Assembly (NCBI GenBank): GCA_018302815.1
Contig: JAGVZE010000008.1
Location: 60,526 to 124,525 of the forward strand
Length of the DNA stretch: 64,000 nucleotides
Source: Candidatus Woesearchaeota archaeon
GTDB lineage: Archaea; Nanobdellota; Nanobdellia; Woesearchaeales; ARS49
Direction: 5' to 3'
Below are positions 4,047 to 50,708 of the stretch, in pieces (position 1 is the first letter of the stretch; the number at the start of each line of letters is the position of its first letter). The position numbers were made by a program, and so were the translations under genes. The notes below the pieces were generated by a model. It made no database searches. It was not told the origin of the DNA and saw only the letters and a list, made by a program, of their open reading frames with translations.

Positions 4047-4108
4047 CATAATCTTTAAATAGAACACTCGACCTAAAAAGAACATACTTATTCAAAGGAG
4101 GAATCACA

Positions 4109-4405: not shown

Positions 4406-4485
4406 TTAGAATTTATTCATCTTTTTTCAATAGTTATTTATTTTTTAGTTGAAAAATCATTCATTGTGATGAAGGCACACAGACA

Positions 4486-4758
4486 ATGACGCAGCTATTA
4501 CAAACTTTGTTCCACATATTGTTTCCCAAAAAATCCGAATTCTTTGATGATGAAGACAAAGCACTTGAGGCAGTTTTTCGATATAAAGGAGAAACCGTTC
4601 CAAACGGCGAACTAGAAAAAATAGGCAAACTCTTAACCTGTCTTGGTGAAAATTCAATCGTTCCTCGAATCGAACGCACAACCGAATACGTGCACGGCGA
4701 ACCCATGCACATACAATTCACGACACGGTATTTTGTTCAATACGACAGAATGAAATAG
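4486..4758 (+). CDS. Hypothetical protein, 90 aa
   Basis: A small soluble protein of unknown function, MTQLLQTLFH at the N-terminus, moderately acidic, without cysteines other than one, no transmembrane segment and no motif I recognise. It ends with TAG. Two minus-strand readings cover the same DNA, but their composition (Ser/Arg/Cys-rich) looks like antisense shadow. Support is only coding appearance and a position in line with neighbouring plus-strand genes. Confidence 0.55.
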   Translation: MTQLLQTLFHILFPKKSEFFDDEDKALEAVFRYKGETVPNGELEKIGKLLTCLGENSIVPRIERTTEYVHGEPMHIQFTTRYFVQYDRMK

Positions 4759-4859
4759 ATTTAGACTTCTAAAGGGTCAGCAAAACTTCATGAGCGCCGT
4801 TTTTCTTCACTTTCACATCACTATAAAAGTTTAAGAACCAACTTCTTACAGCACAACAT

Positions 4860-5261
4860 ATGAATCTAAAAGAGTGGATGATAACGTACCTTAAAAGCAG
4901 GGACGCGATAAAACAGGAAATAATTGGAATAGAAGATAACGGCGATTCTTTTATCGTGCGCAAACAAAACACTGACACTTTATTCTTAATCCGGCCTGAA
5001 TTAAATTCTATGGATGAAATAAAGCAAAAAGCCAACGAGCAGACCTCTCTTGCAGTACACAACACAAAACGCAACGTCGATTTTGTCATAACAAACTGGG
5101 ACGCGCTCTCAAAATTCGAGAAATTGTGCATTTACTTTGTCAATTCCGTCTCAAACGAAAAATGGATGCTCTATCCGCACACCCACAATCAAATAACAGA
5201 AAAAACGGCTCTTAGAAAAGGACTTGAAGCCATGTATTCAGAAGTCACACCGGCAACGTGA
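4860..5261 (+). CDS. Hypothetical protein, 133 aa
   Basis: A soluble 133-residue protein of unknown family (MNLKEWMITYLKSRDAI). The N-terminal half has alternating charged and hydrophobic residues typical of a small alpha/beta fold (IGIEDNGDSFIVRKQNTDTL). A TATA-like CTATAAAAG box sits near 4821-4829, about 30 bases before the ATG, so the transcript is probably leaderless or nearly so. The 3' end converges with the HAD gene at 5267 with 5 bases between. Confidence 0.7.
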   Translation: MNLKEWMITYLKSRDAIKQEIIGIEDNGDSFIVRKQNTDTLFLIRPELNSMDEIKQKANEQTSLAVHNTKRNVDFVITNWDALSKFEKLCIYFVNSVSNEKWMLYPHTHNQITEKTALRKGLEAMYSEVTPAT

Positions 5262-5266
5262 TCGTT

Positions 5267-5872
5267 TTATTTTTGATAATGTCTTTTCACGAATTCTACC
5301 GCGCTTGGAACCTCGTTCCAATCATAAACCCTGATAACTCCATTCGGAACAGCTCCCTGATTCCAAGACCTATCCAGCAAAATGCCGGCAACACCATGAG
5401 ATGCGCAATTCTCAAGATGAGGAATAAGATCATCAATATGGACGAGAGCGCCCTGCTCTCTGCAAACTTCTCCCTTAGTTTTCTTTTGTTTATCGAACGA
5501 ATCGATGAAAACAATCTGCCTGAACACATCACCAATTTCCCTTCTTATCGAATCCACAGTCAACTCACGAATGTCATCAGGCCGGCTAGTCACAGAAATC
5601 AAATCATACCGCTCTTTTAATCTCCTAATTCCTTCAATTGCCCCTGAAACAACAGGTATGTTTTTGAAATCTTCAGAGCGGTAATACTCAAAAATCTTAG
5701 CCGCGCGCTCAGGGCGAGTCCTTCCAATCGCGTGAGCGTACTCCCTAAAATCATAATATTTCAAACCCTTATGAGAAACCACGTGCTCAGGATACGCGTT
5801 GTTATGCCAATCAAATAGGCCCGGAACAAAATGAAACAACACATCATCGATGTCAACGCTTAATAGGTCCAC
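5267..5872 (-). CDS. HAD-superfamily phosphatase, 5'-nucleotidase-like
   Basis: A 201-residue HAD hydrolase. The nucleophile motif is DIDDV near residue 7, motif II is the Ser/Thr in ISVTSRPDD, and the acidic motif is VHIDDLIPHLENC. The size, a capless layout and the C-terminal WNQGAVPNGVIRVYDWNEV resemble the NT5C/YqfW-type 5'(3')-deoxyribonucleotidase-like group (family-level inference). It has a paralogue immediately upstream (5909-6517) sharing the order of motifs and the C-terminal W-N/S-x-x-P pattern, so the pair looks like an old tandem duplication. Natural substrate unknown. Confidence 0.85.
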   Translation of the reverse strand: MDLLSVDIDDVLFHFVPGLFDWHNNAYPEHVVSHKGLKYYDFREYAHAIGRTRPERAAKIFEYYRSEDFKNIPVVSGAIEGIRRLKERYDLISVTSRPDDIRELTVDSIRREIGDVFRQIVFIDSFDKQKKTKGEVCREQGALVHIDDLIPHLENCASHGVAGILLDRSWNQGAVPNGVIRVYDWNEVPSAVEFVKRHYQK

Positions 5873-5908
5873 TTAAATAGAGTATGGCAGATGAGTATAA
5901 CTTCTTTT

Positions 5909-6517
5909 CTATTGCTCAAGCATGAGATGAACTAGGTGTGGAATTTCGCTCCACGAATACGCACGAGCCACTCCTTTCGGAAGAGACTTTCGATTCCACG
6001 GCGCGTCCATAAGTATGACTTTAATATCCTGCTCGGCACATTCATTCGCATAAGGAAGACCATCTTCAATAATCAGCCTTGCGCCAATCTCTTGGCACTT
6101 TCGCGCTTTCCTTCCTTTCTCACGAAAACCTTCGACGGAATGAACTTCGTAAATACTCGAGAATTCCTGATTCACCCATCGACTCGTGTGCTCGTGCCAA
6201 AGAGTCGGCCTTGCAGTCACTGCATGAATCTCAAATCCTGCAAGTTTTGCCAGCCCTTCTTTTGCCCCTTCAAAAACACCGATTTTTTGGACGTGACCCT
6301 CTTCGTAAAATCGCTTCATCCACGAAAGCCAATATTTTTGCGTATTGCCAAGACTCTCGTGCAGTTCGTATGACTCAGTCAACATATCTCTGGTGTATTT
6401 CGTTCCATTGATTTTATTGTACCAACATAAAAAACTCACAACATAATTCGCTAGCACTTCATCGATATCGGTCGCGATGACGATATTATCCTGTTCGAGA
6501 TAAGAATCCAAGCCCAT
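5909..6517 (-). CDS. HAD-superfamily phosphatase, paralogue of the neighbour
   Basis: A 202-residue HAD protein with DIDEV (nucleophile Asp), HAVTARP (motif II), and IIEDGLPYANEC (acidic motif), and a C-terminal DAPWNRKSLPKGVARAYSWSEI segment matching the neighbouring paralogue. The ATG at 6517 lies one base beyond the 3' end of tRNA-Gly on the same strand, so this mRNA may be generated by tRNA 3'-end processing of a joint transcript; that is inference from spacing. The paralogue follows 36 bases downstream. Confidence 0.85.
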   Translation of the reverse strand: MGLDSYLEQDNIVIATDIDEVLANYVVSFLCWYNKINGTKYTRDMLTESYELHESLGNTQKYWLSWMKRFYEEGHVQKIGVFEGAKEGLAKLAGFEIHAVTARPTLWHEHTSRWVNQEFSSIYEVHSVEGFREKGRKARKCQEIGARLIIEDGLPYANECAEQDIKVILMDAPWNRKSLPKGVARAYSWSEIPHLVHLMLEQ

Positions 6518-6518
6518 A

Positions 6519-6589
6519 TACGGCAGCCGGGAATCGAACCCGGACCATAAGCTTGGGAAGCTCAGATCATACCACTAGACCACTGCCGT
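6519..6589 (-). tRNA. tRNA-Gly (CCC)
   Basis: A 71-base cloverleaf read by eye: acceptor ACGGCAG/CTGCCGT, D-arm GTC/GAT, anticodon stem TGAGC/GCTTA with loop TTCCCAA giving anticodon CCC, T-arm CCGGG-TTCGATT-CCCGG, discriminator A. The first pair is A-U rather than the usual G-C. There is no intron and no encoded CCA. Unlike the Leu, His and Arg tRNAs in this window, no partial copy of this tRNA is seen nearby. Confidence 0.95.
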
Positions 6590-6724
6590 GCAAAACATTC
6601 TGGAAAGCCGATGAATAAAAAGCTATGCACGAAGCCAGTATACTAAAAAGTAACATTTATATATCAGTATATTCTAATAACAGACACGCCAGAGTGATGT
6701 GATAGAGAGTAAAAAAGAGAATAT

Positions 6725-6764
6725 AGAGGTATCGCAGAACTGCGGTTCGCGTGGCCTCTTTTTT
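6725..6764 (+). terminator. Terminator-like hairpin in the leader of the solenoid-protein gene
   Basis: AGAGG (6725-6729) pairs with CCTCT (6755-6759) around an inner CGCAG/CTGCG pair, followed directly by six T residues. TTATATAT near 6657-6664 could be the promoter for the gene starting at 6812, which would place this hairpin-T6 unit inside its 5' leader. It could be an attenuator or the end of a short RNA; no test is possible from sequence alone. Confidence 0.4.
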
Positions 6765-6811
6765 CATGAAATAATAATCAAAAAGAGTGATGAAAACAGA
6801 GGTGTTGTGAA

Positions 6812-7549
6812 ATGGATACAGTTCTACAAAAAATAGTCAATAACGCGGCAGAAAGCGCCCAAGAGCTTCGCAAAAAAGAACAGAAACTAAGCAATTTCAG
6901 ACAAATTCTTCCAGCGCTCATCGAAAAAGGATTCGACAACATAAACCTCTCAATGTTCGATGAAGAAACCAGAATGGGACTTCTCAACGCATTCGGCGAT
7001 GAATACGTACGCAAAGGACGCCTACCTGAAGCGATGAAAGTCTACATACTCGCAGGCAACAAAGCCAAACTCACCTCTATCGGTGAAGACTATGAGAAAG
7101 TCGGCCTTTACAGCAACGCGATAGACTGCTACCGCCTCGCAGACAACAACGACAAACTCCTCAAAGTCGGCAACAAATGCCTCGAAGAAGGCAAAACGGG
7201 AGACGCCATCAAAGCCTTTCGCGCTGTTAACGATGTGGAACGACTTACCAGAGTAGGCGAAGACAGCCTGCGCAAAGAAAAATACGACCACGCAATCGAA
7301 GTATTCTCTGCAGTCGGCAACAAGCAAAAACTCGCAGAAGTCGGAGACAAAGCCCTTCGTGAACGACAATTAGGTTACGCGGCCAAAGCCTACGAAATGG
7401 CAGGCGATTCAACCAGACTATCAACTCTTGGCGATACTTGCCTTCGAGAAGGACTATTCGCGACAGCATACAAAAGCTATGTTCTCGCAGGCAACACAAT
7501 GATGGCGCAATTCGTCAAAGAAAACTTCGGAAACCAAATGACACTATGA
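6812..7549 (+). CDS. Alpha-solenoid (TPR-like) repeat protein
   Basis: A 245-residue protein. After a helical N-terminus (about residues 1-65) it consists of about five tandem helical repeats of ~33 residues with the pattern L-x-x-x-G-[DE]-x-x-x-[RE]-x-G-x-x-x-x-A-[IA]-x-x-[FY]-x-x-A-[GN]. Visible repeat cores include AFGDEYVRKGRLPEAMKVY, IGEDYEKVGLYSNAIDCY, VGEDSLRKEKYDHAIEVF and LGDTCLREGLFATAYKSY. Such repeats are protein-binding scaffolds. The stop overlaps the start of the zinc-finger gene (ATGA), and a coiled-coil gene follows 1 base after that, so all three are probably translated together and may form one complex. The partner is unknown. Confidence 0.8.
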   Translation: MDTVLQKIVNNAAESAQELRKKEQKLSNFRQILPALIEKGFDNINLSMFDEETRMGLLNAFGDEYVRKGRLPEAMKVYILAGNKAKLTSIGEDYEKVGLYSNAIDCYRLADNNDKLLKVGNKCLEEGKTGDAIKAFRAVNDVERLTRVGEDSLRKEKYDHAIEVFSAVGNKQKLAEVGDKALRERQLGYAAKAYEMAGDSTRLSTLGDTCLREGLFATAYKSYVLAGNTMMAQFVKENFGNQMTL

Positions 7550-7788
7550 ACAAATGCGATAGACATAAAAAAGAGCACGTAGGCAGCTGCATGTGGTGCG
7601 GCAAAAAAGTCTGCGAATTCTGCGTAGCCAGACAAGAAGGCACAAAGAAATATTGCGAGAAATGCGCGATACAACTCGGAGGAGTTAGACGTGAACCTTT
7701 GCCAAGAGTAGGCAAAATGCCTTTGCCCGCGAGCGGCCGCAAGTTCAAATTCGAAAACGGCTACTTAGTCATGGACGGAGGAGAGTAA
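7546..7788 (+). CDS. Small B-box-like zinc-finger protein
   Basis: An 80-residue protein starting at the ATG that overlaps the preceding stop (ATGA). It has an ordered set of metal ligands: C4, H7, H11, C15, C18, C23, C26, then C37 and C40 (CDRHKKEH, CMWCGKKVCEFC, YCEKC), the layout of a B-box/treble-clef two-zinc module. The C-terminal 40 residues are basic and without a domain. It sits in the middle of a three-gene coupled operon with a solenoid and a coiled-coil protein. A longer upstream frame start is possible but would overlap the solenoid gene heavily. Confidence 0.8.
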   Translation: MNKCDRHKKEHVGSCMWCGKKVCEFCVARQEGTKKYCEKCAIQLGGVRREPLPRVGKMPLPASGRKFKFENGYLVMDGGE

Positions 7789-7789
7789 G

Positions 7790-8236
7790 ATGGATGTAGA
7801 TAAACTTCAACGCATAAACGCTCTTGCAGGAGAATTACGAAAAAGAAACATGACCTTTTCCAGCGATGACGCGTACAAACAAGCTGAACAAGTATACGAA
7901 CAAGGACTGGTACAAGAAATGCCCATGCAAGAGACAGTGGTTTTGAAGCCTGTTCAAGACATGCTTGAAACGCGCAAAATAGAACTGATGCTAGAACTCA
8001 ATAATAAGAAATACGAGGCTGAATTTGAGAGATACAGATCCGCAATCAATACACTCGCGCTTGAGATACAACAGTTGAAAGAAGCGCTCTCTAAAGCAAC
8101 ATTTGAAGCTCCAAAACAAAAAGAAAAACAAGCTGAACTTAAAACCGAAGTCAAAGAAGACCATCCAAGACAAGGCAAATACCAACCTGCAGATGTAGAT
8201 ATACAGAAAATGTTCTATTTCGGGTCTAAACGATAA
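7790..8236 (+). CDS. Coiled-coil protein
   Basis: A 148-residue, mostly helical protein with a long charged coiled coil in the middle (KKYEAEFERYRSAINTLALE onward to about residue 115) and a conserved-looking C-terminal DVDIQKMFYFGSKR. It starts 1 base after the stop of the zinc-finger gene with a GGAGG just upstream (GGAGGAGAG overlapping the previous stop), so it is surely translated as part of that operon. No enzyme motif. It converges with the UbiA gene at 8236/8237 without a gap. Confidence 0.8.
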   Translation: MDVDKLQRINALAGELRKRNMTFSSDDAYKQAEQVYEQGLVQEMPMQETVVLKPVQDMLETRKIELMLELNNKKYEAEFERYRSAINTLALEIQQLKEALSKATFEAPKQKEKQAELKTEVKEDHPRQGKYQPADVDIQKMFYFGSKR

Positions 8237-9079
8237 TTAATATAACGCCCATAACGCGAGCACGAGCCACAACGCCATCGCAATAAGCATTCTTTTATCC
8301 TTGAACACTAACTGAGGTTCTCTTGCCGTTCTTGAACCCTGCTCTATCAATGAAGCGTATCGTAGAATCGCATACAATGCAGGAGGAAGAGTGATGAATA
8401 ACTTCTCGTGGCCGCCGAAAAAAGCGTATAAAACATACGAGATGATTAGTGTGGTAGTTGAGATTGCGCTGAGCAGCGAAAGACTCTCTGCGGTGTAGCC
8501 GCCCAACGCTTTTCTCTGAGAAATCGCTTTTTCCTTTAGAAGCAAAAGCTCGCTCTTCCTCTTGCCAACTGCAAGAAACAAAGCAAGGAAGAAAACTCCA
8601 ACAATAAGCCAAGGACTCACCCAAACTTGTATGGCAAATGCACCGCCTACTGCTCTTAAAACGAAGTTCACTGCGATAGTCAGGATATCTGCGAACGCCT
8701 CGTGCTTTAGCAAAAGAGTGTATAGTTGTGAGAGAACGAAATAACTGAACGCACACATCACAAAACCAACCGGAAGCAACAATGAGAGAGCAACGCCCAC
8801 TGATGCTAAACTGAATGAGAGGATGAATGCTCCTTGAACGCTAACACGTCCTGACGGCAAAGGACGCGAACGCTTCTCAGGATGCAACGCATCACGCTGA
8901 CGATCAGCGATGTCATTCAAAACGTAAGTCGACGATGACAACGCGCAAAACGCAGCGAACGCGATAAGCACCTGCGGGTAAACTGAAAAATTCAAAAGAT
9001 TACCTGAAAAAACCAACGCGAGAGCGACAAGAAAATTCTTGTACCATTGAAACGCACGAACGAGCTCTAAATATGACAT
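8237..9079 (-). CDS. UbiA-family prenyltransferase, DPPR-synthase-like
   Basis: A 280-residue membrane protein with eight to nine hydrophobic segments. The first Asp-rich motif is NDIADRQRD, followed by HPEKRSRPLPSG, which is the pattern of decaprenyl-phosphate phosphoribosyltransferase (UbiA-type) rather than of menaquinone or heme prenyltransferases; the N-terminal FQWYKN also fits. Family knowledge predicts transfer of phosphoribose (or a similar sugar phosphate) to a polyprenyl phosphate for cell-surface glycan synthesis. The gene stands alone, convergent with the coiled-coil gene, upstream of PCNA on the same strand. Confidence 0.85.
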   Translation of the reverse strand: MSYLELVRAFQWYKNFLVALALVFSGNLLNFSVYPQVLIAFAAFCALSSSTYVLNDIADRQRDALHPEKRSRPLPSGRVSVQGAFILSFSLASVGVALSLLLPVGFVMCAFSYFVLSQLYTLLLKHEAFADILTIAVNFVLRAVGGAFAIQVWVSPWLIVGVFFLALFLAVGKRKSELLLLKEKAISQRKALGGYTAESLSLLSAISTTTLIISYVLYAFFGGHEKLFITLPPALYAILRYASLIEQGSRTAREPQLVFKDKRMLIAMALWLVLALWALY

Positions 9080-9113
9080 GAACCCAAGAAAAGCAAAACC
9101 AGTTTAAAAAAGC

Positions 9114-9857
9114 TTAGTCGTTCTCGACACGAGGAGCCAAGATGAAGCTCATAAGAAGCTTATCAACAACCTTGTATTCGAGTTTTAGCGGATAGTCCTG
9201 ATTGAAAAAAATGCTCACTTCATCAGAAAGCTTGCCTGCGCTAATCATCTTCTTTAGATATTCAATAGAATATTTCGACTTAACTTTCGCTGACGTCTCT
9301 GACTTAATCTTCGCAGAATCGCCCTTCATCTCAATTTGCGCTTTAGACAAGTCGCCTTCAGCTGCAATGACAAATTTCTCAGGCTCTGCCGCGAAAGTCA
9401 CGCTTTCAGCTACAACATCAGCGTCAGAAATCGCGTCATTAAGAACAGAACTCTTCATAGTGACCGTGACAGGGAATGTGAGGTTCGGGATGCGCTGCTC
9501 GCGCTCCTCAAGCTCGATTAAAGGCAAGCTGAACGTTCTTGTCGTGCTGCCTTTCAACTGGATTTGAAGCTTGTTATCAGAACCAACTTCAAGAGATATA
9601 ATGTCGCTCGCGTTCGAACGCTTAAGCACTTGCTTAAGGCTCGCAAGATTTATCGCCATCTCCTGGTCTTTATCTATATCGTACTCTGTGAAACTGCTCG
9701 AGAGAAGCTTGAAAATGACCATCGCCACATTCGCAGGATCCATAGCAACAAGCTCAACACCATCACGCGTGAGCTTGAATCTGGCCTCATTAACCAATTC
9801 CGAAAGGACAGCAATACTATCTTTTAACATCGTTGGATCAGCAAGCACAAGTTTCAT
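9114..9857 (-). CDS. pcn: DNA polymerase sliding clamp (PCNA)
   Basis: A 247-residue PCNA, normal length for archaea. Diagnostic stretches are ELVAMDPANVAMVIFKL, the interdomain EEREQRIPNL (the partner-docking connecting loop is close by) and the C-terminal LLMSFILAPRVEND. The start is the ATG at 9857 giving MKLVLADPTML; a longer frame start would add 12 non-conserved residues. A TTTAAATA box (9903-9910) lies about 46 bases upstream. It clamps DNA polymerase, RFC, FEN1 and ligase on DNA. Confidence 0.97.
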   Translation of the reverse strand: MKLVLADPTMLKDSIAVLSELVNEARFKLTRDGVELVAMDPANVAMVIFKLLSSSFTEYDIDKDQEMAINLASLKQVLKRSNASDIISLEVGSDNKLQIQLKGSTTRTFSLPLIELEEREQRIPNLTFPVTVTMKSSVLNDAISDADVVAESVTFAAEPEKFVIAAEGDLSKAQIEMKGDSAKIKSETSAKVKSKYSIEYLKKMISAGKLSDEVSIFFNQDYPLKLEYKVVDKLLMSFILAPRVEND

Positions 9858-9929
9858 ATCAAAACACCTACGTTTTCTTATAGAATTGCGCACAGGACGT
9901 GCTTTAAATATTTTCCTATACTAGAATCT

Positions 9930-11276
9930 CTACTTAAGAACCAATCGCTCGCCGTTTTTCAGAGGGTGCAACGAGACCCCATCTTTATATCCAACTTCCA
10001 ACGCAAGCGCGTTGAACGCGTTCATCATGGAATCCTCGCCATGAGTGGGAAGAACGTGCACTGGCTTTACCATTTCCAACATGTCGCGCAAATCCTCTCT
10101 TGAACTGTGGCCTGACACGTGAATGTCGTTGAATATTCTCACGCCGAACTTTTTTAGTTTTGCATCCATCACCGCGCGCTGCTCACGATTGATATCGGCA
10201 GGAATAATGGTTGAGCTGAAAACCACGTGATCGTTAGAGCCAAAATTCCATTGATAAACACCATCAAGCATCTTGCTCAAGGTGCTCTGCGGCTCGCCCT
10301 GATGTCCTGACACAACCATCAAATATTTATCTTTTCCACGCCTTTGAATCTCGCTAAGCATATGCCGTGTTTGGCGCGAATATTTGAGAATCTTCGCATC
10401 CTTTGAAAGATCGATGATGCCCGCATCCTTTGCCGCAAAACAATACTTCGCGACACTGCGCCCCATAAACACGACCCTGCGCTTTAACAAACGACCGCAG
10501 TCAGCGATGGACTTTAATCGGGCAATATGGCTTGCGAAAGTCGTCACGATAAGCCCCTTGCCCTTGTTATCAACCTCAAGCAAAACTTCTCTTAACATAT
10601 CCTTTGCAACCTGTTCGCTAGGAGTTTTTCTTTGCTCCGCAGCATAAAGACAGTCCTGAATAAGCGCGAAAACACCCTGCTGGCCAAGCTTTTTTAGCCT
10701 GTCTAAATTCGCAGGCTTGCCGAGCGTTGGATGCAAATCCAACTTGTAATCATTCGCGTACATCACAACACCTTTCGGAGTATGAAGACACGCGATAATA
10801 GTTTGAGGCGTGCTATGAGTTATGTGGCAAAATTCAAGCTTCAACTCGTTTGATAACGGCATTGACTGGCCAGGCTTAAGAGCAATAATCTTATTTGGGA
10901 TAATTATTTTTTCATCACGCATGATAGTTTTCAGGATAGCTGCTGAAAACGGACTGCAAATAATAGGGCAATCATATTTGCTTGCCATATACGGAACAGC
11001 CCCTATATGGTCAAGATGAGCATGAGTTACAACTATCGCCTTAACTTTCGAACGCCACTCCTTGATAATGCCATCCTGAGGAATGGCTTCAGCACGCTTC
11101 AACGACTGTTCAGTATGCCTGCTGAATTCACCAATTGCCGCGTCAGTAAGCTTGATGTAATTAGGCATGTGCAAGCCCATATCAAAAATAATAACAGAAT
11201 CATCGACTTTCACAGCAGTCATATTCCTTCCAACCTCACCCCAACCGCCAACAGGGCAAACCTCTATATGAGTCAT
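9930..11276 (-). CDS. rnj: Archaeal RNase J (beta-CASP metallo-beta-lactamase)
   Basis: A 448-residue beta-CASP ribonuclease. Motifs: THAHLDHIGAVP (HxHxDH, zinc ligands), HSTPQT region (His of motif III), YANDYKLD (motif IV Asp), and the late VSGHSSREDL and LPTHGEDSMM segments. Family members are 5'-to-3' exonucleases acting on mRNA and rRNA; the WGEVGRNM N-terminus matches RNase J rather than the archaeal CPSF types (no KH domains). The start at 11276 (MTHIEVCPVGGWGE) is chosen because the homologous region begins there. TTTAAAT at 11299-11305 is a suitable promoter box. Confidence 0.95.
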   Translation of the reverse strand: MTHIEVCPVGGWGEVGRNMTAVKVDDSVIIFDMGLHMPNYIKLTDAAIGEFSRHTEQSLKRAEAIPQDGIIKEWRSKVKAIVVTHAHLDHIGAVPYMASKYDCPIICSPFSAAILKTIMRDEKIIIPNKIIALKPGQSMPLSNELKLEFCHITHSTPQTIIACLHTPKGVVMYANDYKLDLHPTLGKPANLDRLKKLGQQGVFALIQDCLYAAEQRKTPSEQVAKDMLREVLLEVDNKGKGLIVTTFASHIARLKSIADCGRLLKRRVVFMGRSVAKYCFAAKDAGIIDLSKDAKILKYSRQTRHMLSEIQRRGKDKYLMVVSGHQGEPQSTLSKMLDGVYQWNFGSNDHVVFSSTIIPADINREQRAVMDAKLKKFGVRIFNDIHVSGHSSREDLRDMLEMVKPVHVLPTHGEDSMMNAFNALALEVGYKDGVSLHPLKNGERLVLK

Positions 11277-11378
11277 ACTGCCCGAAAGAGCTTCTGTTGA
11301 TTTAAATGTTGCCAATTGTACGGCTATACATACTATATTGCCCAAGAGATTTTGTAGTAAGCACACTTCTCGTAACTA

Positions 11379-11702
11379 ATGAACAAAAAAGGCTCGATGT
11401 GGGCGCTGCTAACCGTAGCAGCAATAGCTCTTGCAACCCTTGCGATAATAGGAACTGGAATGAGCCTCACCGGAGACGTCACAGGCCCCCGGCCACCCAG
11501 AATCGCGCCTTTAAGACCAGTGGTAATTGACAGACCCGAAACAGTAGTATACGAACAACCCGCCGCTTCCGACGCGATGGCCGACGAGATGGCACAAATA
11601 GAACGAAGCGTATGCTACCTAATCAACCTGCAGCTCGACAAAGACGCAGGACTTCAAACACCACCAGAAAGAATATCCACCAGTTGCCCCTTGTGGATAT
11701 AG
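11379..11702 (+). CDS. Secreted or membrane-anchored small protein
   Basis: A 107-residue protein with one N-terminal hydrophobic helix (WALLTVAAIALATLAIIGTG) after a short basic start (MNKKGS), then a Pro-rich linker (PRPPRIAPLRPVVIDRP) and an acidic outer part with two cysteines (VCYLI, TSCPLW). It is most simply a protein tethered to the outside of the membrane. No family recognised. It is divergent from RNase J with about 100 bases between. Confidence 0.65.
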   Translation: MNKKGSMWALLTVAAIALATLAIIGTGMSLTGDVTGPRPPRIAPLRPVVIDRPETVVYEQPAASDAMADEMAQIERSVCYLINLQLDKDAGLQTPPERISTSCPLWI

Positions 11703-11847: not shown

Positions 11848-11962
11848 GCGGCGGTACCCAAGCGGTCAAAGGGGGCAGCCTCAAGCACAAACTAGCCACG
11901 AAGCGAATGTGGTGAAAGCTGCTGACTTAGTGTCTTCGCAGGTTCGAATCCTGTCCGCCGCA
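11848..11962 (+). tRNA. tRNA-Leu (CAA) with intron
   Basis: A class II tRNA: acceptor GCGGCGG/CCGCCGC, D-arm CCC/GGG with loop AAGCGGTCAAA, anticodon stem GCAGC/GCTGC, spliced loop CTCAAGA with anticodon CAA, long variable arm (GAC/GTC), T-arm around TTCGAAT, discriminator A. A 31-base intron (about 11886-11916) sits at the canonical 37/38 position and contains CCAC/GTGG, compatible with a bulge-helix-bulge for the archaeal splicing endonuclease. The last 16-20 bases of this tRNA recur nearby in both orientations and again at 16727-16800 (see repeats). Confidence 0.95.
11886..11916 (+). other. tRNA-Leu intron
   Basis: A 31-base intron between tRNA positions 37 and 38, inferred because removing it restores a 7-base anticodon loop between perfectly paired 5-bp stems. 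Exact ends can shift by a base. Confidence 0.8.
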
Positions 11963-12103
11963 TATTTCTTAGTTGAAAGCACTTCGTTCTTCTTGTTTCT
12001 TGCGATAAGCGGACAGGATTCGAAGTCATCGGACCGCTAGGCGGTCCTCGACATCAAAGTCCTCGCTATCGCTTCGGACATTTGATGACTCCTGTCCGCC
12101 GCA
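11950..12103. repeat. tRNA-Leu tail copies and hairpins downstream of tRNA-Leu
   Basis: After the tRNA gene comes a 16-base inverted copy of its 3' part (12009-12024 is the reverse complement of 11943-11958) and then a direct copy of its last 14 bases (12090-12103). Between them lie the palindrome GGACCGC-TAG-GCGGTCC (12031-12047) and CATCAAAGTCC against GGACATTTGATG. The spacer between the gene and the inverted copy has AAGCACTTCGTTCTT (11977-11991) followed by TTGCG. The same plan appears at 16727-16800 and next to tRNA-His. The remaining stretch 12104-12416 has only a CTGAAAAG/CTTTTCAG hairpin near 12162-12184; no gene is convincing there. Confidence 0.85.
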
Positions 12104-12416
12104 CTTGATTTAAGGATAAATTCATTCCTTTTTGGACGGTTGTAGAAGGTAGACGTTTTTCGAGAGTCTGAAAAGGTGGCTCTTTTCAGAGAGTCGGATT
12201 GAGCAGAGCTTGTTACACAATTACGTTAATTTCTGCTTGAATTATTGATGGCGTAATATACGGACGACAAGGGGGCTTGCGTTTGATTTGCGTACTTTGT
12301 CACAATATTTACGAGAACGTTTGCATCGTTTAAGTTATCCGTAGAGTGGATCTCTGTTGTTCGTTTAACAATCAGATATCCGATGTTAAGCGTACTAACA
12401 GTTCGTTTAATGGTTG

Positions 12417-13001
12417 TTAAGTGCAATTGATTTTTGCAGCCTTCAAGTCTGTGTTTTTGGTGAAATGAATCGCATGCAACCCTTCTTTCCTGGCGGTGGA
12501 AATATTATCTGATTTATCATCAATAAGAACCATGTCGCATTTTTTACAATTTAGCCTTTTTTGCAGATAAGTATAATACTCGGGTTGTTCTTTTCTGAAT
12601 CCCGTATTGAATGATAAAATTCGCTGATTGAATATGGTGAGAAAGGGATACTTTTTCTTTATGAACTCCCAAGAATATTTTGAAATATCGCTTATGAGAT
12701 AAACTTTAACTCCATTTTTCTTCACCTTCTTTATAAAATCAATGACTTTTCTGTTAACAAAAGGATATTCCGTTCTTTGCTTAAAGAACTCCTTTGTCGG
12801 AATCTTAGTTCCTAATGAATCGTTGATTATCCTGACTGCTTTACTGCAACTAATCGTGCCCCTATGGAGATCCCATACTATTTTCTGATAAATCTCATGC
12901 ACGTTAGAAGGATTTGCATCCAGTGACTTAAGCCAGGGTTGATACTTCTTTCTCCTTCCACCAACGATGACACCTTCTAAATCCACAAGTAAACATTTCA
13001 T
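12417..13001 (-). CDS. HAD-superfamily hydrolase
   Basis: A 194-residue HAD protein, MKCLLVDLEGVIVGG at the start, motif II in VYLISDISKYSW, Lys of motif III around GFRKEQPEYY, and motif IV VLIDDKSDNISTA followed by AREGL-type spacing (ARKEGLHAIHF). The second position of the nucleophile motif is DLE rather than DxD, as in some HAD groups that are not simple phosphatases. It is the first gene inside the tRNA-Leu-associated island and its base composition is more AT-rich than genes on either side. Substrate unknown. Confidence 0.8.
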   Translation of the reverse strand: MKCLLVDLEGVIVGGRRKKYQPWLKSLDANPSNVHEIYQKIVWDLHRGTISCSKAVRIINDSLGTKIPTKEFFKQRTEYPFVNRKVIDFIKKVKKNGVKVYLISDISKYSWEFIKKKYPFLTIFNQRILSFNTGFRKEQPEYYTYLQKRLNCKKCDMVLIDDKSDNISTARKEGLHAIHFTKNTDLKAAKINCT

Positions 13002-13191
13002 AATCTAACTAATATGTTTCTCACTCTTAAACATAACGGCTAAAAAAATCAACTCTTGACACCTGAGTTTCAATCCATATACTGTTTAAACCGTGAGAAA
13101 AGTCAGTACAAACAACCTTTTAGGACTGTAGGACAATGCAGGAGTTTTTGCATCATTTGCCAGTACAATTTTCTTGCCGCCCTAAGTGTCT

Positions 13192-14025
13192 CTATTTGGT
13201 CATTATGAACTTTGTGAGCATGCTGCAGAATTCTCTTGGATTGTCAGTCATAACAAAATGGCCGCTATTAGAAATGGGAATTTTGGAAATAGAATCTAGA
13301 TAGCTCAATATTTTCATTTGTGAATTTTTCGCACCATACACATAGATCTTTGGTACGCGAAGAGCCTTGAATTTTTTAATGAGATTACCACTATCTGACC
13401 ATTTGACGAGTGACCCGGCTGATCGGTAAAATGCAACTGGATCTGATTTTGCGGCCCACTTCGCCCATAAACGTGCTCCTGACTCTTTGGATCCCGCCAT
13501 CGTTGTTATAAGTTCTTCAAAGAGATTATTCTTGAATTCTTTGAAACTTACGCTTATTGTCTTTCTGCTTAATAGGCCACAGTCTTCTTTAATGAGATTT
13601 CCTTCAATATTCACAAAAGATACAAGTTTGGTTGCGATCTTTTCTGTTAACAGCAACCCAATTGCTCCACCCATGCTGTGAGCAACGATATGAACTTTCT
13701 TTGGATGGAGCTTTTCCAGAAGCAAGTGAATAATTTCGGCTTGTTCTTCCAGTTGGTAAGTGAAATCTTGCGGCTTTGAAGAATCACCAAACCCAATCAA
13801 ATCATACGCTAACAATGAGAACTTCTTCAATTCCTGATACTTGACGACTTGTTCAAAAGAGTCCTTTGTGCACCCAAGTCCATGAATGAGCAAAACAAGT
13901 TCGTCCCCACGATTCGAATACGTTGCGGAGATATCGAGATCACATCCCTGATAACGAACCTTGAAGACTTGCGGCATATGCAAAAAACTCTCCCACATCT
14001 TAAAAAACCTTTTGAAATTGCTCAC
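13192..14025 (-). CDS. Alpha/beta-hydrolase
   Basis: A 277-residue alpha/beta-hydrolase. Oxyanion-hole motif HGLGCTKDSFE, nucleophile elbow AHSMGGAIG (catalytic Ser), acid probably in the YVYGAKNSQM region, and the catalytic His in SGHFVMTDNP near the C-terminus. No signal peptide is seen. Family members include esterases, lipases and C-C hydrolases; the substrate cannot be told. The gene lies in the putative island, has an AT-rich 5' flank, and its codon endings are richer in T and G than those of the core genes, which suggests later acquisition. The 190-base gap 13002-13191 shows nothing convincing. Confidence 0.85.
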   Translation of the reverse strand: MSNFKRFFKMWESFLHMPQVFKVRYQGCDLDISATYSNRGDELVLLIHGLGCTKDSFEQVVKYQELKKFSLLAYDLIGFGDSSKPQDFTYQLEEQAEIIHLLLEKLHPKKVHIVAHSMGGAIGLLLTEKIATKLVSFVNIEGNLIKEDCGLLSRKTISVSFKEFKNNLFEELITTMAGSKESGARLWAKWAAKSDPVAFYRSAGSLVKWSDSGNLIKKFKALRVPKIYVYGAKNSQMKILSYLDSISKIPISNSGHFVMTDNPREFCSMLTKFIMTK

Positions 14026-14141
14026 TTTGTTGTACGGTGTTTGGTTTGCTCTTTTGAGTGATTGTTTGATGTGTTCTTCAATGTTTTATTTCTTGCTCGC
14101 CATTGCGAGCTTGTGAGAACCTCTGGTTCCGTAAAGCTTAT

Positions 14142-14179
14142 ATACTGCTATTAGTATCAGTTGATACTACTATTAGTAT
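14142..14179. promoter_or_regulatory. Tandem palindromic operator before the first HTH-nucleotidyltransferase gene
   Basis: Two 16-base copies of ATACTRCTATTAGTAT (14142-14157 and 14164-14179) repeat with a 22-base period, that is two helical turns. Each is an imperfect palindrome with ATACT/AGTAT arms. The first overlaps the TATA-like TTATATA and the second ends 5 bases before the ATG at 14185, so a bound protein would block transcription. The winged-helix protein encoded downstream is the obvious candidate binder (inference). Confidence 0.65.
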
Positions 14180-14184
14180 ATCTT

Positions 14185-14778
14185 ATGACGAAGACCCAAG
14201 AACAAATATTGAAGCTCTTGCTCGGCAAGCCTGAAGAGCATCTTTCAATGAGGCAAATCGCTCGGCTGTTGGGTAAATCGTACGCGCTTACCTACAATAA
14301 TATTCAAAAGTTGATAAAAACTGAAATTGTGCGAACTAAAGACGTTCCGCCCGCGCAGATTGTTAGTTTGAGCGATCAAGCACCGACAAGCGTACTTGTT
14401 GACATCGAAAGGAAGCGAACAGATGATTTTCTCGTAAAACACGCTTGGTTGAGTCTTTATCGTAAGGACATTCTTTCTGCCGTAGAAAGTCCTTTCTTCG
14501 TTATGATAGTCTTTGGAAGTTACGCCAAAGGGACTGAGACAAAGGGCTCTGACTTGGACATCTTCATTATTGCGCCTGCAAAAGAGGACATTCCTGCTCT
14601 TGAAAAGGTCGCTCAGCAATATACGAAAGCCAAAAAGGGTATTGTTGTGGTTGATGTTCATGGATTTTTGGAAATGATTAAGAATCAGAATACGTTGAAT
14701 GTTGGCAACGAAGCGCGAAAGCATCATATACTTCTTTACGGCGCGGAAACGTATTACGAACTCTTGAAAAAAACATGA
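14185..14778 (+). CDS. Winged-helix DNA-binding domain fused to MNT-type nucleotidyltransferase
   Basis: A 197-residue two-domain protein. Residues ~1-60 form a winged helix (MRQIARLLGKSYALTYNNIQ), and residues ~95-197 a minimal nucleotidyltransferase with the signature GSYAKGTETKGSDLDIF (GS..x..DxD). MNT proteins act as antitoxins that AMPylate or otherwise silence HEPN toxins. This one is followed not by a HEPN gene but by a second HTH-MNT gene. The start at ATG 14185 is chosen because the upstream alternative TTG lies inside the operator. Autoregulation through the tandem operator is likely. Confidence 0.85.
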   Translation: MTKTQEQILKLLLGKPEEHLSMRQIARLLGKSYALTYNNIQKLIKTEIVRTKDVPPAQIVSLSDQAPTSVLVDIERKRTDDFLVKHAWLSLYRKDILSAVESPFFVMIVFGSYAKGTETKGSDLDIFIIAPAKEDIPALEKVAQQYTKAKKGIVVVDVHGFLEMIKNQNTLNVGNEARKHHILLYGAETYYELLKKT

Positions 14779-14808
14779 ACGTAACGAAAAGTATATATAG
14801 GAACTATG

Positions 14809-14826
14809 AGTTCTCATATGAGAACT
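14809..14826. promoter_or_regulatory. Perfect 18-bp palindromic operator before the second HTH-nucleotidyltransferase gene
   Basis: AGTTCTCATATGAGAACT is a perfect palindrome, itself flanked by AGGAAC (14799-14804) and GTTCCT (14831-14836), so the dyad extends over 38 bases. It lies between the TATA box GTATATATAG (14791-14800) and the ATG at 14837. The sequence is unrelated to the operator of the preceding paralogue, implying that each regulator reads its own site. Confidence 0.7.
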
Positions 14827-14836
14827 GGTGGTTCCT

Positions 14837-15421
14837 ATGCGTCCATTGACTGAAAAGGAAAAGGCAATCGTGCTGGTATTGGCAAAAGATTTTTCTACGT
14901 TTTACAACGCTCGTTCATTAAGCAAGCACGTGGGAATGACGCCTCGGGGCACCTTAAAAGCATTAAAGTCATTAGAACAACTTGAGATAGTCACAGGTAA
15001 GCCAATTGGAAAGGCAATTATTTACAAACTCACCTTTAACGAGCACGTTAAAAAACTCCTGCCCTTGTTTCTTTTTGAAGAAGCGCAGACAAAAGCCCAA
15101 CGATGGGTTAAGGAATTCGAGCACTTCAAAGCGAACGCGCTCATTCTCTTTGGATCGGCCCTTCGAGGCAAAGGCCATAACGACATCGATGTTATGATGC
15201 TTGTCAATCCAAAAGATTATGACGTTGTCAACAAGCAGGTTGAGGAGAAGAACGAGATATTGGTAAAACCGATTCATCCTGTTTGGCAAACGCGTGATGA
15301 TTTGGAAAAGAATGTCAGAAAGCCTGACAAGGTGATATTAGATATCCTTAAAACAGGGGTTGTCTTGAAGGGTCAAGAAATGATCGCTGAGGTTCTTTCA
15401 AATGTCGCACGCAGCCAATAA
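14837..15421 (+). CDS. mntA-like: Winged-helix plus MNT nucleotidyltransferase, antitoxin of the HEPN pair
   Basis: A 194-residue protein: an N-terminal winged helix (ARSLSKHVGMTPRGTLKAL) and a C-terminal minimal nucleotidyltransferase (GSALRGKGHNDIDVMML, with the two Asp in DID). It overlaps the HEPN gene by 20 bases, the usual genetic signature of a type VII MNT/HEPN toxin-antitoxin pair. ATG 14837 is preferred to GTG 14828, which is inside the palindrome arm. It shares domain order but little sequence with the gene before it. Its codon use (many G/T third positions) differs from neighbouring core genes. Confidence 0.87.
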   Translation: MRPLTEKEKAIVLVLAKDFSTFYNARSLSKHVGMTPRGTLKALKSLEQLEIVTGKPIGKAIIYKLTFNEHVKKLLPLFLFEEAQTKAQRWVKEFEHFKANALILFGSALRGKGHNDIDVMMLVNPKDYDVVNKQVEEKNEILVKPIHPVWQTRDDLEKNVRKPDKVILDILKTGVVLKGQEMIAEVLSNVARSQ

Positions 15422-15911
15422 GGTCAAATGGTGTCTGGATAAGGCCAAGAAAGAAATTACAGAGAAGCGTAAGCATCGCGGACTTGTAAAAGCCGCACCT
15501 GCTCGCGATCTTGCATATCAACACCTTGCGAAGGCAGAGCATAATTTCAAAGCAGTGCTTTACTTTGAGAGGGGCGGTTTTACTGACTGGAGTGTGAGTG
15601 CGGGGTTTTATTGCCTCTATCACTGTCTCATGGCCGTGCTCGCCAAGCATGGCTATGAATCGCGCAACCAAGAATGCACTTTGGCTGCAATAGACTATTT
15701 GATTGAGCAAAAGACGTTCATGCTTGACAAGAAATTCATCGACGCTCTGAAGCAATATGATGAGTCAGAAAGACACGAAACGAATGTGATTGAACTTCGT
15801 GAAATACTACAATATGGGGTCAGCGTTAAGGCGGAATCAAAAGAATTGGTGAAAATCAAAGAACTTTGCAAAGAAGCAATTGATGCTGTGAAAGACATCA
15901 TTTCAGCGTAG
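15402..15911 (+). CDS. HEPN-domain protein, toxin-like partner of the nucleotidyltransferase
   Basis: A 169-residue all-helical HEPN protein (AYQHLAKAEHNFKAVLYFER, then AGFYCLYHCLMAVLAKHGYE). By context it would be the RNase-like partner of the overlapping MNT antitoxin. The canonical HEPN RNase motif R-x4-6-H is not clear: at the expected C-terminal place the protein reads RHETNVIELREILQYGVSV, with R-x4-Y rather than R-x4-H. That fits the UPF0332-like branch of HEPN proteins and leaves real toxicity uncertain. Confidence 0.8.
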   Translation: MSHAANKVKWCLDKAKKEITEKRKHRGLVKAAPARDLAYQHLAKAEHNFKAVLYFERGGFTDWSVSAGFYCLYHCLMAVLAKHGYESRNQECTLAAIDYLIEQKTFMLDKKFIDALKQYDESERHETNVIELREILQYGVSVKAESKELVKIKELCKEAIDAVKDIISA

Positions 15912-15921
15912 AAGGTGAAAA

Positions 15922-16191
15922 ATGAGAATCTTTGTCGTAGGTGATTCGGGGCCAGAGCATAACAACGTTATAAGCATTCATCGTACGTATGAAGGCGCGC
16001 TCAAAGCTTGGAACAGAAGACGTTTAGAACTAATTGAAGAGGCACAATCATATTTGAAATCAATGACGAGTGAATCTGAGAAGGAAATGTACGAACGAAT
16101 AATCAAGAATCTCTCATGTGAAGATCCTGAGAGAATAGACAATTATCCGCAAGAAACGCCGTACATAACGGAAAAGAAACTGCAAGAGTGA
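15922..16191 (+). CDS. Hypothetical protein, 89 aa
   Basis: A small protein starting MRIFVVGDSGPEHNNV with a helical, charged middle (KAWNRRRLELIEEAQSYLKS) and an acidic end. No recognised domain; the beginning resembles small proteins that describe a YxGAL/YEGALKAW-type helix but I cannot name a family. It lies 10 bases after the HEPN stop and just before a zinc-ribbon gene, so the three may share a transcript. AAGGTGAAAA before the ATG could serve as a weak ribosome-binding site. Confidence 0.65.
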   Translation: MRIFVVGDSGPEHNNVISIHRTYEGALKAWNRRRLELIEEAQSYLKSMTSESEKEMYERIIKNLSCEDPERIDNYPQETPYITEKKLQE

Positions 16192-16196
16192 AACTG

Positions 16197-16649
16197 ATGC
16201 AAAAAGTCAAATGCTCAGAATACGGGTCTGAAATGGACTGCCCAGAGAATATGCTCCAAGCAGAAAACCATCTTTGCGCCAACTGCGCTGATGAACTAGC
16301 TGGAGAAGAAAACCCACTCGAAACTTTTTGGGAATTCGCTGAAAACATGAACTACGTTGAAGGCATTGTCAACGAATTGACAGAACTCAAGCTCGCCGCT
16401 ATCTGGAAGAAAGATAAGGAAGAACTCAAAGAAATGCCCAGAAAGGAACTTGCACGAGAAATGCTGCGCGAAGGAATGGGTTCTGCATTCTTTCTCCTCG
16501 CAACAATGGGATATTCAAAGGAAGAACTTGCCCGCCTGCGCGAGCTTGCAATCGTCATGCAGTCCGAAGACGAAGAAAAGATGAAGGTCTTATTCGAGAA
16601 GTGGAAAAAAGAAGAGCAAGCCGAGCTTCAAGAAAACGCAACAAATTAA
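16197..16649 (+). CDS. Small protein with N-terminal zinc ribbon
   Basis: A 150-residue protein. The first ~30 residues carry four cysteines as Cx8C...CxxC (CSEYGSEMDC, CANCADE), a likely zinc ribbon; the rest is charged and helical (REMLREGMGSAFFLLATMGY and KEELARLRELAIVM). No enzyme signature. The ATG at 16197 starts 5 bases after the preceding stop; an upstream in-frame GTG at 16188 overlaps that stop and is less likely. Function unknown. Confidence 0.68.
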   Translation: MQKVKCSEYGSEMDCPENMLQAENHLCANCADELAGEENPLETFWEFAENMNYVEGIVNELTELKLAAIWKKDKEELKEMPRKELAREMLREGMGSAFFLLATMGYSKEELARLRELAIVMQSEDEEKMKVLFEKWKKEEQAELQENATN

Positions 16650-16726
16650 TACTTCATCAACTTCTCAACCATCAGAACGATTTCTCGAAAGAAATCTACC
16701 GTCTCTTTTGTCCCTTACATACGTCG

Positions 16727-16815
16727 CCTGTCCGCCGCATATAGTTTCTAATAAGCGCTTCGCGCTTCACTATTTTTGCGATATGCGGACAGGATTCGAA
16801 CGTCTGCAGCTGCAG
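16727..16815. repeat. Displaced tRNA-Leu tail, inverted pair with central hairpin
   Basis: CCTGTCCGCCGCATAT (16727-16742) exactly repeats tRNA-Leu 11950-11965. An inverted tail ATATGCGGACAGGATTCGAA follows at 16781-16800. Between them is the hairpin AAGCGC-TTC-GCGCTT (16753-16767) and TTTTTGCG, the same plan as downstream of tRNA-Leu. A 12-bp palindrome CTGCAGCTGCAG (16804-16815) is adjacent. No complete tRNA can be drawn here. It could be the right-hand attachment-site remnant of the island that starts at the tRNA-Leu gene. The gap 16650-16874 holds no gene. Confidence 0.85.
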
Positions 16816-45570: not shown

Positions 45571-45680
45571 TTAATAGAAGGGCGACCGCCGAGAATCGAT
45601 CGGACTTTTGTCCGCTAGCTTCTCGGGCTCGCCTTGCGTATTTTATGAATAGCACTTCGTGCTTGCATAGTTAAGAGAAG
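45571..45680. repeat. Partial tRNA-His copy and hairpins beside tRNA-His
   Basis: A 29-base copy of the tRNA-His 3' part (45571-45599) repeats 45671-45699 exactly 100 bases away with one mismatch. It then pairs imperfectly with GCTTCTCGGGCTCGCC (about 45618-45633) around CGGAC-TTTT-GTCCG. The spacer contains TTGCG and the hairpin TATGAATAGCAC-TTC-GTGCTTGCATA (45645-45670 region). Read from the tRNA end, the order (tRNA tail, AGCAC/GTGCT mini-hairpin, TTGCG motif, inverted tail) is the same as at tRNA-Leu and at 16727-16800. Confidence 0.85.
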
Positions 45681-45752
45681 GGCGACCGCCGAGAATCGAA
45701 CTCGGTCCAAGGGAGTCACAGTCCCCTATCCTGCCATTAGACTACGGCCGCC
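45681..45752 (-). tRNA. tRNA-His (GTG)
   Basis: Cloverleaf: acceptor GCGGCCG/CGGTCGC, D-arm GTC/GAT, anticodon stem GGGGA/TCCCT with loop CTGTGAC giving anticodon GTG, T-arm CCGAG-TTCGATT-CTCGG. The extra G at position -1 that histidyl-tRNA synthetase requires is encoded in the gene and faces discriminator C73. TTTATAAATC at 45781-45790 read on the other strand (GATTTATAAA) is the likely promoter. Confidence 0.94.
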
Positions 45753-50451: not shown

Positions 50452-50708
50452 TCAAAGATACTTTTTTAAACCCACATTCTGCCCAACCTGTTATGGACCT
50501 GTAGCTCAACCTCAAACTTTCAGAAAGTTTGATCAAATTCCTACTCGTTCATGCTCGAGAAGCAATTCATAACTGACTCGCTTCGCTCGCAGGGTAAAAA
50601 CTCTTCTCTCGCATTCACGATGTCGGAAGACTTGAAATCCGCGTCTTTCAAAGATACTTTTTTAAACCCACATTCTGCCCAACCTGTTATGGACCTGTAG
50701 CTCAGCCT
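50452..50708. repeat. Duplicated promoter and 5' end of tRNA-Arg, with hairpins between
   Basis: Bases 50452-50512 and 50648-50708 are the same over 61 positions with one mismatch: they span TCAAAGATACTTTTTTAAAC, the region up to the tRNA, and the first 18-22 bases of tRNA-Arg. The first copy is cut in the D-loop and continues into CAAACTTTC-A-GAAAGTTTG, a perfect hairpin, and GACTCGCTTCGCTCGC. The period is 196 bases. The first copy keeps the promoter and could still be transcribed. Confidence 0.88.

Follow-up and report, generated by a model that had tools for sequence, protein, structure and literature searches.

What is the element at positions 16,727 to 16,800 of the DNA analysed here, a 64,000-nucleotide stretch of a contig of a Candidatus Woesearchaeota archaeon (the window), in which two opposed copies of a tRNA-Leu 3' end flank an AT-rich spacer, and how did it come to lie there? 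The original prediction grouped this locus with two others in the window, one with tRNA-Leu ends and one with tRNA-His ends, as members of an active family that picks up or templates tRNA tails around a common centre made of a mini-hairpin and a TTGCG motif.

Tail-flanked loci in the window

Direct reading confirmed the architecture of the three loci, with coordinates correct to within one or two bases; opposed tail copies, mini-hairpin and TTGCG are all present at each of them (Table 1). An additional direct tail copy, missed in the original prediction, closes both the Leu and the His modules. The two Leu loci represent one common module type, and the centre of the His module is reversed relative to its tRNA. 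The orphan locus (16726–16801), made up of a Leu tail and the opening portion of a Leu-type module, lies 4.8 kb downstream of the matching tRNA-Leu. Its tail and spacer match the window's Leu module at 78% over 75 nt, and no closing tail was seen after its truncated type B head. A search of the window with Rfam at gathering score revealed tRNA and RNase P only; since the RNase P RNA is archaeal, the host is an archaeon. The host genome comprises 1.55 Mb in 26 contigs, with 41 tRNA matches.

Table 1. Positions of tRNA-associated features in the window
Feature	Position	Strand	Basis or remark
tRNA-Leu (CAA), intron-containing, source of the module's 3' tail	11848..11962	+	Rfam RF00005, 44.1 bits; anticodon call
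AT-rich spacer of Leu module	11963..12008	+	sequence
Mini-hairpin in Leu spacer	11977-11991	+	sequence
TTGCG in Leu spacer	12000-12004	+	sequence
Inverted T-arm/tail of Leu module	12009..12024	+	16/16 nt complementary to 11943-11958
Type B head of Leu module	12025..12086	+	hairpins GGACCGCTAGGCGGTCC (12031-12047) and CATCAAAG..TTTGATG (12052-12087)
Closing direct tail copy, tRNA-Leu	12087..12103	+	17 nt, 94%
Gene-bearing segment, 4.6 kb, between two Leu tail copies	12104..16725	.	ORF inspection
Orphan Leu tail copy	16726..16739	+	13/14 identical; no tRNA gene adjoining
Orphan type B spacer	16740..16784	+	mini-hairpin 16753-16767, TTGCG 16776-16780
Orphan inverted Leu T-arm/tail	16785..16801	+	type B head beyond is truncated
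His direct tail copies	45668-45699 and 45568-45599	-	32 nt, 94%
His module	45581..45680	-	spacer, inverted arm, head hairpin, direct tail copy
His head hairpin	45601-45614	-	sequence
His inverted arm, imperfect	45618-45633	-	sequence
TTGCG at His locus	45634-45638	reversed relative to tRNA	sequence
His spacer hairpin	45651-45663	-	sequence
tRNA-His (GTG)	45681..45751	-	Rfam tRNA model
First direct-repeat copy (tRNA promoter region and tRNA 5' end)	50453..50508	+	sequence
Element E, 5'-side insertion	50509..50648	+	75% over 114 nt to insert behind tRNA-Cys at G000:C26:7573
Second direct-repeat copy, entering intact intron-containing tRNA (50691-50798)	50649..50704	+	sequence, tRNA match

Recurrence and anatomy of the modules

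A tRNA gene was scored as module-bearing when a copy of its own 3' end, with a score of at least 11, was present within 300 nt downstream. The flanks used were those of all 41 tRNAs of the window's genome (G000), together with those of 128 tRNA matches out of 141 in four relatives (34 from G013, 40 from G052, 33 of 35 from G002 and 21 of 32 from G017); the 13 matches left out, eleven in G017 and two in G002, were weak or had no flanking stretch. A second tail copy was observed behind 60 of the 169 tRNA genes, versus 11 of 665 controls in which tails and flanks of the same genome were mismatched. Copies were present in each of the five genomes (15/41 in G000, 11/34 in G013, 21/40 in G052, 10/33 in G002 and 3/21 in G017). 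We conclude that the family is recurrent, as had been proposed, and much larger than the three loci. When the whole of G000 was searched with all 41 tails, and 40 of 50 candidate regions were scored, 61 matches were obtained; 40 were tRNA ends, and 20 of the other 21 were no more than 400 nt downstream of a tRNA. Within the reach of this search, which did not show the distal copies of 13–14 nt, tail copies of at least 15 nt sit close behind tRNA genes.

Read from the tRNA, a module begins with an AT-rich spacer, about 40–45 nt long in most modules, in which a short hairpin is frequent. The spacer is followed by an inverted T-arm (GGATTYGAAC) and then by between one and three hairpins, and the module closes with a direct T-arm or T-loop half and the acceptor tail. 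Modules are arranged singly or in tandem, up to three. Measured from the tRNA end to where the scored tail copy stops, modules have a median length of 114.5 nt (range 65–272), and the longest ATG-started frame closed within a module encodes 43 aa. Counting 5-bp stems with loops of 3–5, we found 1.81 hairpins per module, versus 0.36 in DNA of the same length further downstream (58 of the 60 modules).

At all 60 of these tRNAs, the 3' part of the tRNA is directly repeated on both sides of the module and the tRNA is left intact. With tRNA positions numbered backwards from 73 at the final base of the match, the repeat starts at position 58 in 23 modules, at 50–53 in 21, at 59–62 in 11, at 29–32 (anticodon arm) in three and at 48 or 55 in two, and chance identity may move a start by a base or two; the start is at or 5' of position 53 in 25 modules and at 58 or later in 34. 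Identity extends no more than 3 nt past the tRNA end in 52 of the 60. The commonest repeat length is 16 nt, 21 repeats are 21–24 nt long, and three are 42–45 nt. Several position-58 modules have a second T-arm that would be complete but for extra hairpins placed precisely at the boundary of GTTCR and AATCC, and this class is therefore probably in part the result of nested insertion.

Each tail copy matches the resident tRNA, which is partly by construction, since the units were found through that match. For the most part, the inverted arm corresponds to the T-arm motif that every tRNA shares, and its fit to a particular tRNA is modest: in 35 modules, the 8 nt past the common motif match the module's own tRNA at a mean of 3.7 positions, versus 2.4 for other tRNAs (Wilcoxon p about 1e-6), and three modules, all of them at tRNA-Leu, match at all 8. 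The mainly universal character of this arm removes much of the puzzle of a common centre between different tails. No terminal inverted repeats were found in 59 inserts, the first and last 15 nt of which agree at a mean of 5.36 positions, versus 5.41 in mismatched pairs, with no insert reaching 10. Rfam searches of three array-bearing loci, with E up to 0.1, matched tRNA alone.

The supposed common centre, an AAGC..GCTT hairpin together with TTGCG, does not generalise as a hallmark of the family. TTGCG is not enriched (4/60 module-bearing versus 6/109 other tRNA flanks), and the AAGCRC.. hairpin, allowing either orientation and up to two substitutions, was found in 5/60 and 1/109, respectively. 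The mini-hairpin occurs in five places of its own genome at up to one mismatch; at two mismatches, 25 matches were obtained versus 38 for a reversed control pattern, and it was rejected as a hallmark. Hairpins capped C(GAA/TTC/GCA/TGC)G are present within the first 60 nt of 17/60 module-bearing flanks, versus 1/109 others. In DNA, a GNA triloop with a closing C-G pair is unusually stable, which offers a lead; the mini-hairpin belongs to this capped class. The hallmark of the family is instead a palindrome that ends in a tRNA tail.

For every one of 24 distinct heads, collected by their outer arms alone, the predicted fold is a single long hairpin, with interruptions in some. In 13 of the 24, picked for equal inner stem and loop length, a choice that favours pairing, 90.8% of cells pair and 14 cells are changed on both sides; covariation in these heads is 0.610, versus 0.170 when shuffled, with none of 500 shuffles as high. 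The palindrome is kept, and the cause is not indicated, because the selection of heads favours pairing and template-switch correction could give the same changes.

The genomes compared numbered 26 for the host's family and 352 for its order, counting the host's own. A compact palindrome pattern was found in 18 of the 352, eight of them in the family. Three of the ten positive genomes outside the family (G233, G315 and G316) have the palindrome adjoining a tRNA with its tail; the matches in the other seven, and in G018 within the family, have no tRNA in the examined locus and look like chance. The pattern misses type B and T-loop-insert modules and therefore undercounts. The exact type B core (a 17-mer) gave 24 matches in GTDB r220, 23 in bacterial records and one in a euryarchaeal record, compared to about 30 expected by a rough estimate; at no match does a type B head continue from the core or an inverted arm precede it, and these matches were rejected.

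Presence and absence of modules, and neighbouring genes

In congeneric pairs, tRNA loci were taken as orthologous when their anticodons agreed and BLAST matched at least 80 nt upstream. By the tail test, 10 of 22 such loci are occupied in one species only. For G002/G017 (13 loci), seven are empty in both species, one is occupied in both and five in one only; the corresponding numbers for G013/G052 (nine loci) are three, one and five. At four of these ten, the discordance does not amount to a clean empty site: in G017 the tRNA-Tyr module survives in shortened form, and other differences separate the Glu, Ala and Pro pairs. Clean filled/empty alignments were obtained for three pairs, Ser, Gly and Gln (the last, from G002/G017, is outside the 22-locus count, its anticodon having been miscalled), and reveal one insertion of about 95–115 nt with the tail repeated; such pairs fit gain and precise loss alike. 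The remaining discordant G013/G052 pairs rest on the tail test.

Related modules recur at different tRNAs and in different genera. In G000, the array A-B-C is found behind one tRNA-Leu (L018) and A-C behind another (L017, with masked bases beyond), and type B palindromes are present behind tRNA-Leu, tRNA-Ser and tRNA-Glu. The window's Leu type B palindrome, from inverted arm to tail, matches that of a tRNA-Leu in G052, which belongs to another genus, at 95.8% over 95 nt, and in this comparison no match was reported for the spacer or the upstream flank. An 81-nt stretch (an insert and the following AATCC) is identical behind tRNA-Asp of G017 and tRNA-Tyr of G002. The proposal of an active family thus stands as regards the signs of mobility, namely occupied and empty sites and identical or near-identical palindromes or inserts at different tRNAs or genera, and falls as regards the common centre. 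Templating of the tails was not supported: the tail is better read as a target repeat from insertion or recombination than as a copy templated from a tRNA. Reverse transcriptase (RVT_1) was found in four of seven genomes and in none of G002, G003 and G052, and templating by this enzyme was rejected. As a separate observation, an insert of about 150 bp breaks a type B head downstream of a tRNA-Glu (L028; G000:C16:24947, tRNA strand, from +215), with TTGACAT on both sides.

Six tRNAs of G000 were followed wider downstream. Three have a distant tail copy (Leu at 4.8 kb, Arg at 13.1 kb and Tyr at 9.7 kb); none was found for tRNA-Thr and a tRNA on C7 in the stretch read. The tail-flanked Arg segment (L310, G000:C24, 621–13743) is probably an integrated element: a gene for a 427-aa tyrosine recombinase adjoins the tRNA, further genes resemble, by ORF reading, those of an integrated virus or plasmid, and a tail-hairpin module is located just past the distal end. 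At tRNA-Tyr (L311, reverse strand, 1849 to 11525), the distant copy matches at 13/14 positions and a recombinase gene lies behind the tRNA. The module found 4.1 kb downstream of tRNA-Asp (L309, reverse strand, 916 to 5027) carries a tail that differs at two positions; PIN-, Lrp- and aminotransferase-like genes were noted near this module by ORF reading. The Leu (12104–16725) and Asp segments contain ordinary-looking genes, and no recombinase or integrase gene was recognised in them by ORF inspection; both may be cassettes of the module system, the Leu segment being a possible gene cassette or island. Translations of window positions 14161–15911, inside the Leu segment, read as two nucleotidyltransferase-like ORFs and then a HEPN-like ORF, possibly MNT/HEPN toxin-antitoxin pairs.

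Insertions were also observed on the 5' side of tRNAs. For element E of the window, the duplicated stretch is at least 56 bp long and takes in the 5' end of the tRNA together with its promoter region; a relative of this element lies 3' of tRNA-Cys in two genera, with a repeat of 43–45 nt. Separately, copies of tRNA 5' parts (13–24 nt) were seen upstream of intact tRNAs in L010, L025 and L058, the 5' counterpart of the tail modules; L058 has a 3' copy as well.

Tyrosine recombinases (PF00589) are present in 19 of the 26 family genomes; there are eight in G000, one each in G002 and G017, four in G013, two in G052 and none in G003. In G000, their genes adjoin four tRNAs. Three of the eight G000 proteins scored 113.3, 85.6 and 39.8 with the integron integrase model TIGR02249, the cut-off of which is 265, and the best NCBIfam match of these three was XerA_Arch, in all cases below its cut-off. 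The close relatives of the Arg-element recombinase, among the best 120 of 1834 matches, are mostly unnamed proteins. Cas1 (PF01867) was found in one of the 26 family genomes and in none of G000, G002, G013, G017 and G052, and the Y1 transposase (PF01797) in four of seven genomes and in none of G002, G017 and G052; the presence of these two enzymes does not track that of modules. None of the four families searched (PF00589, Cas1, Y1 transposase and reverse transcriptase) is present in every module-bearing genome checked.

Two groups of recombinase genes were noted besides. Short Xer-like recombinases, with frames of 195–317 aa, are encoded at G000:C17:39515, C17:42041, C24:166169, C13:27721 and C7:33866, and two of them seem to start with the catalytic domain, so that the DNA-binding domain usual at the N-terminus may be missing. 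A tyrosine recombinase frame of 430–476 aa is located just downstream of tRNA-Thr in three genera (G000:C26:33215, G052:C11:6136 and G017:C72:16720); its DNA identity of 72–78% suggests a long-resident, possibly domesticated enzyme.

Possible origins of the modules

The existence of the family, its anatomy and its presence or absence in sister species rest on direct evidence. As to the origin of the modules, we favour, with a probability of about 0.42, the reading that they are short, ORF-poor cassettes gained and lost behind tRNA genes by site-specific recombination at the T-arm and 3' end. A cassette would consist of an AT-rich spacer and a folded palindrome ending in the resident tRNA's 3' tail, single or in tandem. 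Insertion and loss at the T-arm or 3' end would likely proceed by site-specific recombination, probably through putative tyrosine recombinases acting in trans on the folded palindrome. The palindrome would be the recombination site, which would act after folding from a single strand, like attC in integrons; a recombinase would be responsible, and gene-bearing segments such as window 12104–16725 would be cassettes of the same system.

Integration by tyrosine recombinases ordinarily leaves a repeat of the tRNA 3' part and an intact tRNA, and the modules bear the same mark. The module repeats start in the anticodon arm, the T-arm and the 3' end, which are also the three regions that archaeal integrases use according to passages of PMC8371274. 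The excess of tail copies behind tRNAs, the occupied and empty sites in sister species, the tandem arrays, the palindromes and inserts shared between tRNAs or genera, the density of hairpins and the paired heads, the 13.1-kb segment with its recombinase gene and the occurrence of PF00589 in 19 of 26 family genomes likewise speak for this reading. The strongest result against the favoured mechanism is G003: this genome, listed as 100% complete, has no PF00589 match, yet it carries tail copies behind three tRNAs in two loci, in tandem behind both tRNA-Gln genes; old modules or a virus-brought enzyme would explain this case. A repeat start at position 58 also speaks against it, since it falls inside the 7-nt T-loop that a classical tyrosine recombinase needs to be identical on both sides, unless the modules are later inserts into a longer repeat. 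In addition, 5'-side insertions with a long repeat (window 50453–50704) are unexplained by one fixed site, and the compensatory changes in the palindromes can also arise through template-switch correction without selection.

The modules probably work like an integron cassette array. An attC site consists of two inverted core sites that fold from one strand, and its R' box has the consensus GTTRRRY. Modules, too, have a palindromic boundary site, the heads being predicted to fold with the closing arm and pairing being conserved in the 13 selected heads. The closing arm reads GTTC, however, with C at position 4 in 24/24 aligned heads, which departs from the GTTRRRY core, and no recombinase scanned (three of the eight in G000) reaches the IntI cut-off; the modules are therefore not an integron. 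Unlike integrons, they use a tRNA T-arm and tail as their site in place of attI/attC and have almost no cargo genes. According to passages of PMC9668308, archaea possess integrons, including CALINs (attC clusters without IntI), and attC folds from a single strand; the likeness to the modules is in tandem cassettes that each end in an imperfect palindrome able to fold from one strand, and in arrays without a neighbouring integrase. The word tRNA is absent from the main text of that paper. A bolder version of the favoured reading, which we hold to be rather unlikely, makes the modules an archaeal tRNA-anchored counterpart of integrons: the T-arm and 3' end would be the entry site, T-arm palindromes the cassette sites and a non-IntI recombinase the enzyme, with arrays of nearly gene-free cassettes, and occasionally gene islands, behind up to half of a genome's tRNA genes.

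The main rival is host replication and repair. Replication forks would stall at tRNA genes, and template switching via the shared T-arm motif (GGTTCRAATCC) would build the modules with no dedicated enzyme, the tail being duplicated and inverted and the hairpins copied from other tRNA loci. Several features are consistent with this: direct and inverted copies of one short segment occur together, inserts are found exactly at the conserved GTTCR^AATCC (one of them identical at tRNA-Asp and tRNA-Tyr), the quasi-palindromes are imperfect, and no single one of the four enzyme families accompanies the modules everywhere. However, no shared microhomology is seen at the left junction, which falls at the tRNA 3' end or close to it (identity past the end is 3 nt or less in 52/60 repeats), unit size is moderately uniform, and one head plan is found across genera. 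We consider template switching unlikely, though a serious competitor.

That the modules are functional RNA, namely co-transcribed tRNA trailers whose hairpins terminate transcription or guide tRNA processing, is improbable. A hairpin and a T-rich spacer directly after many tRNAs could end tRNA transcripts, the heads retain base pairing, and the excess of capped hairpins within 60 nt of module-bearing tRNAs agrees with such a role. However, presence at the same tRNA varies between sister species (10/22 loci by the tail test), so a tRNA does not seem to need a module; the inverted arm would be expected to compete with tRNA folding, and Rfam found nothing but tRNA in the three array-bearing loci.

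We rate no higher the possibility that the modules are attachment-site scars of ordinary integrated viruses or plasmids, decayed or excised. Gene-poor remnants of tRNA-integrated elements are familiar as attL/attR sites and CIMEs, and the recombinase genes adjoining four G000 tRNAs, as well as the 13.1-kb (tRNA-Arg) and 9.7-kb (tRNA-Tyr) tail-flanked segments, are in line with such an origin. However, one would not expect scars in five genomes to be built on a common palindromic plan, to have heads that are related and sizes close to 100 nt, or to pile up in tandem in the same order. Compared to ordinary tRNA integration, a nearly gene-free unit of about 100 nt, sometimes in tandem, with two inverted T-arms around a hairpin head is unusual. 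The tRNA-targeting integrative elements described in passages of PMC8371274 likewise have the tRNA 3' tail on both sides and use the same tRNA sub-locations, whereas modules are far smaller, lack an integrase and contain an internal palindrome matching the T-arm.

Finally, miniature casposon-like elements, inserted by a Cas1-type integrase with a target-site duplication of about 15 bp at tRNA 3' ends, are very improbable: passages of PMC6614799 describe duplications of 14–15 bp made by the Aciduliprofundum boonei casposase at a site that adjoins and partly overlaps tRNA-Pro, and the commonest module repeat is 16 nt, but Cas1 was found in none of the five genomes studied, terminal inverted repeats are absent from the 59 inserts, and repeat length is variable, with 21 of 60 at 21–24 nt and three at 42–45 nt.

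The open-access literature searched, most subscription papers being outside its reach, contained no description of such tRNA-tail hairpin cassettes. Mitochondrial mobile double-hairpin and repetitive hairpin elements (PMC5910586, PMC2800124) are also short, hairpin-built and mobile or invasive; unlike them, the modules are tied to tRNA 3' ends and end in a tRNA tail.

If site-specific recombination is the correct reading, these small-genomed archaea would own a recombination platform that docks at the most universal of genes, with the tRNA kept usable by the tail repeat, and the modules would be a second case in nature of folded palindromes serving as cassette sites. They would also offer a testable route by which these archaea gain tRNA-flanking DNA and perhaps gene islands. 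Even if template switching is responsible, the modules would be a genome-wide source of structured DNA at the tRNA genes of this lineage.
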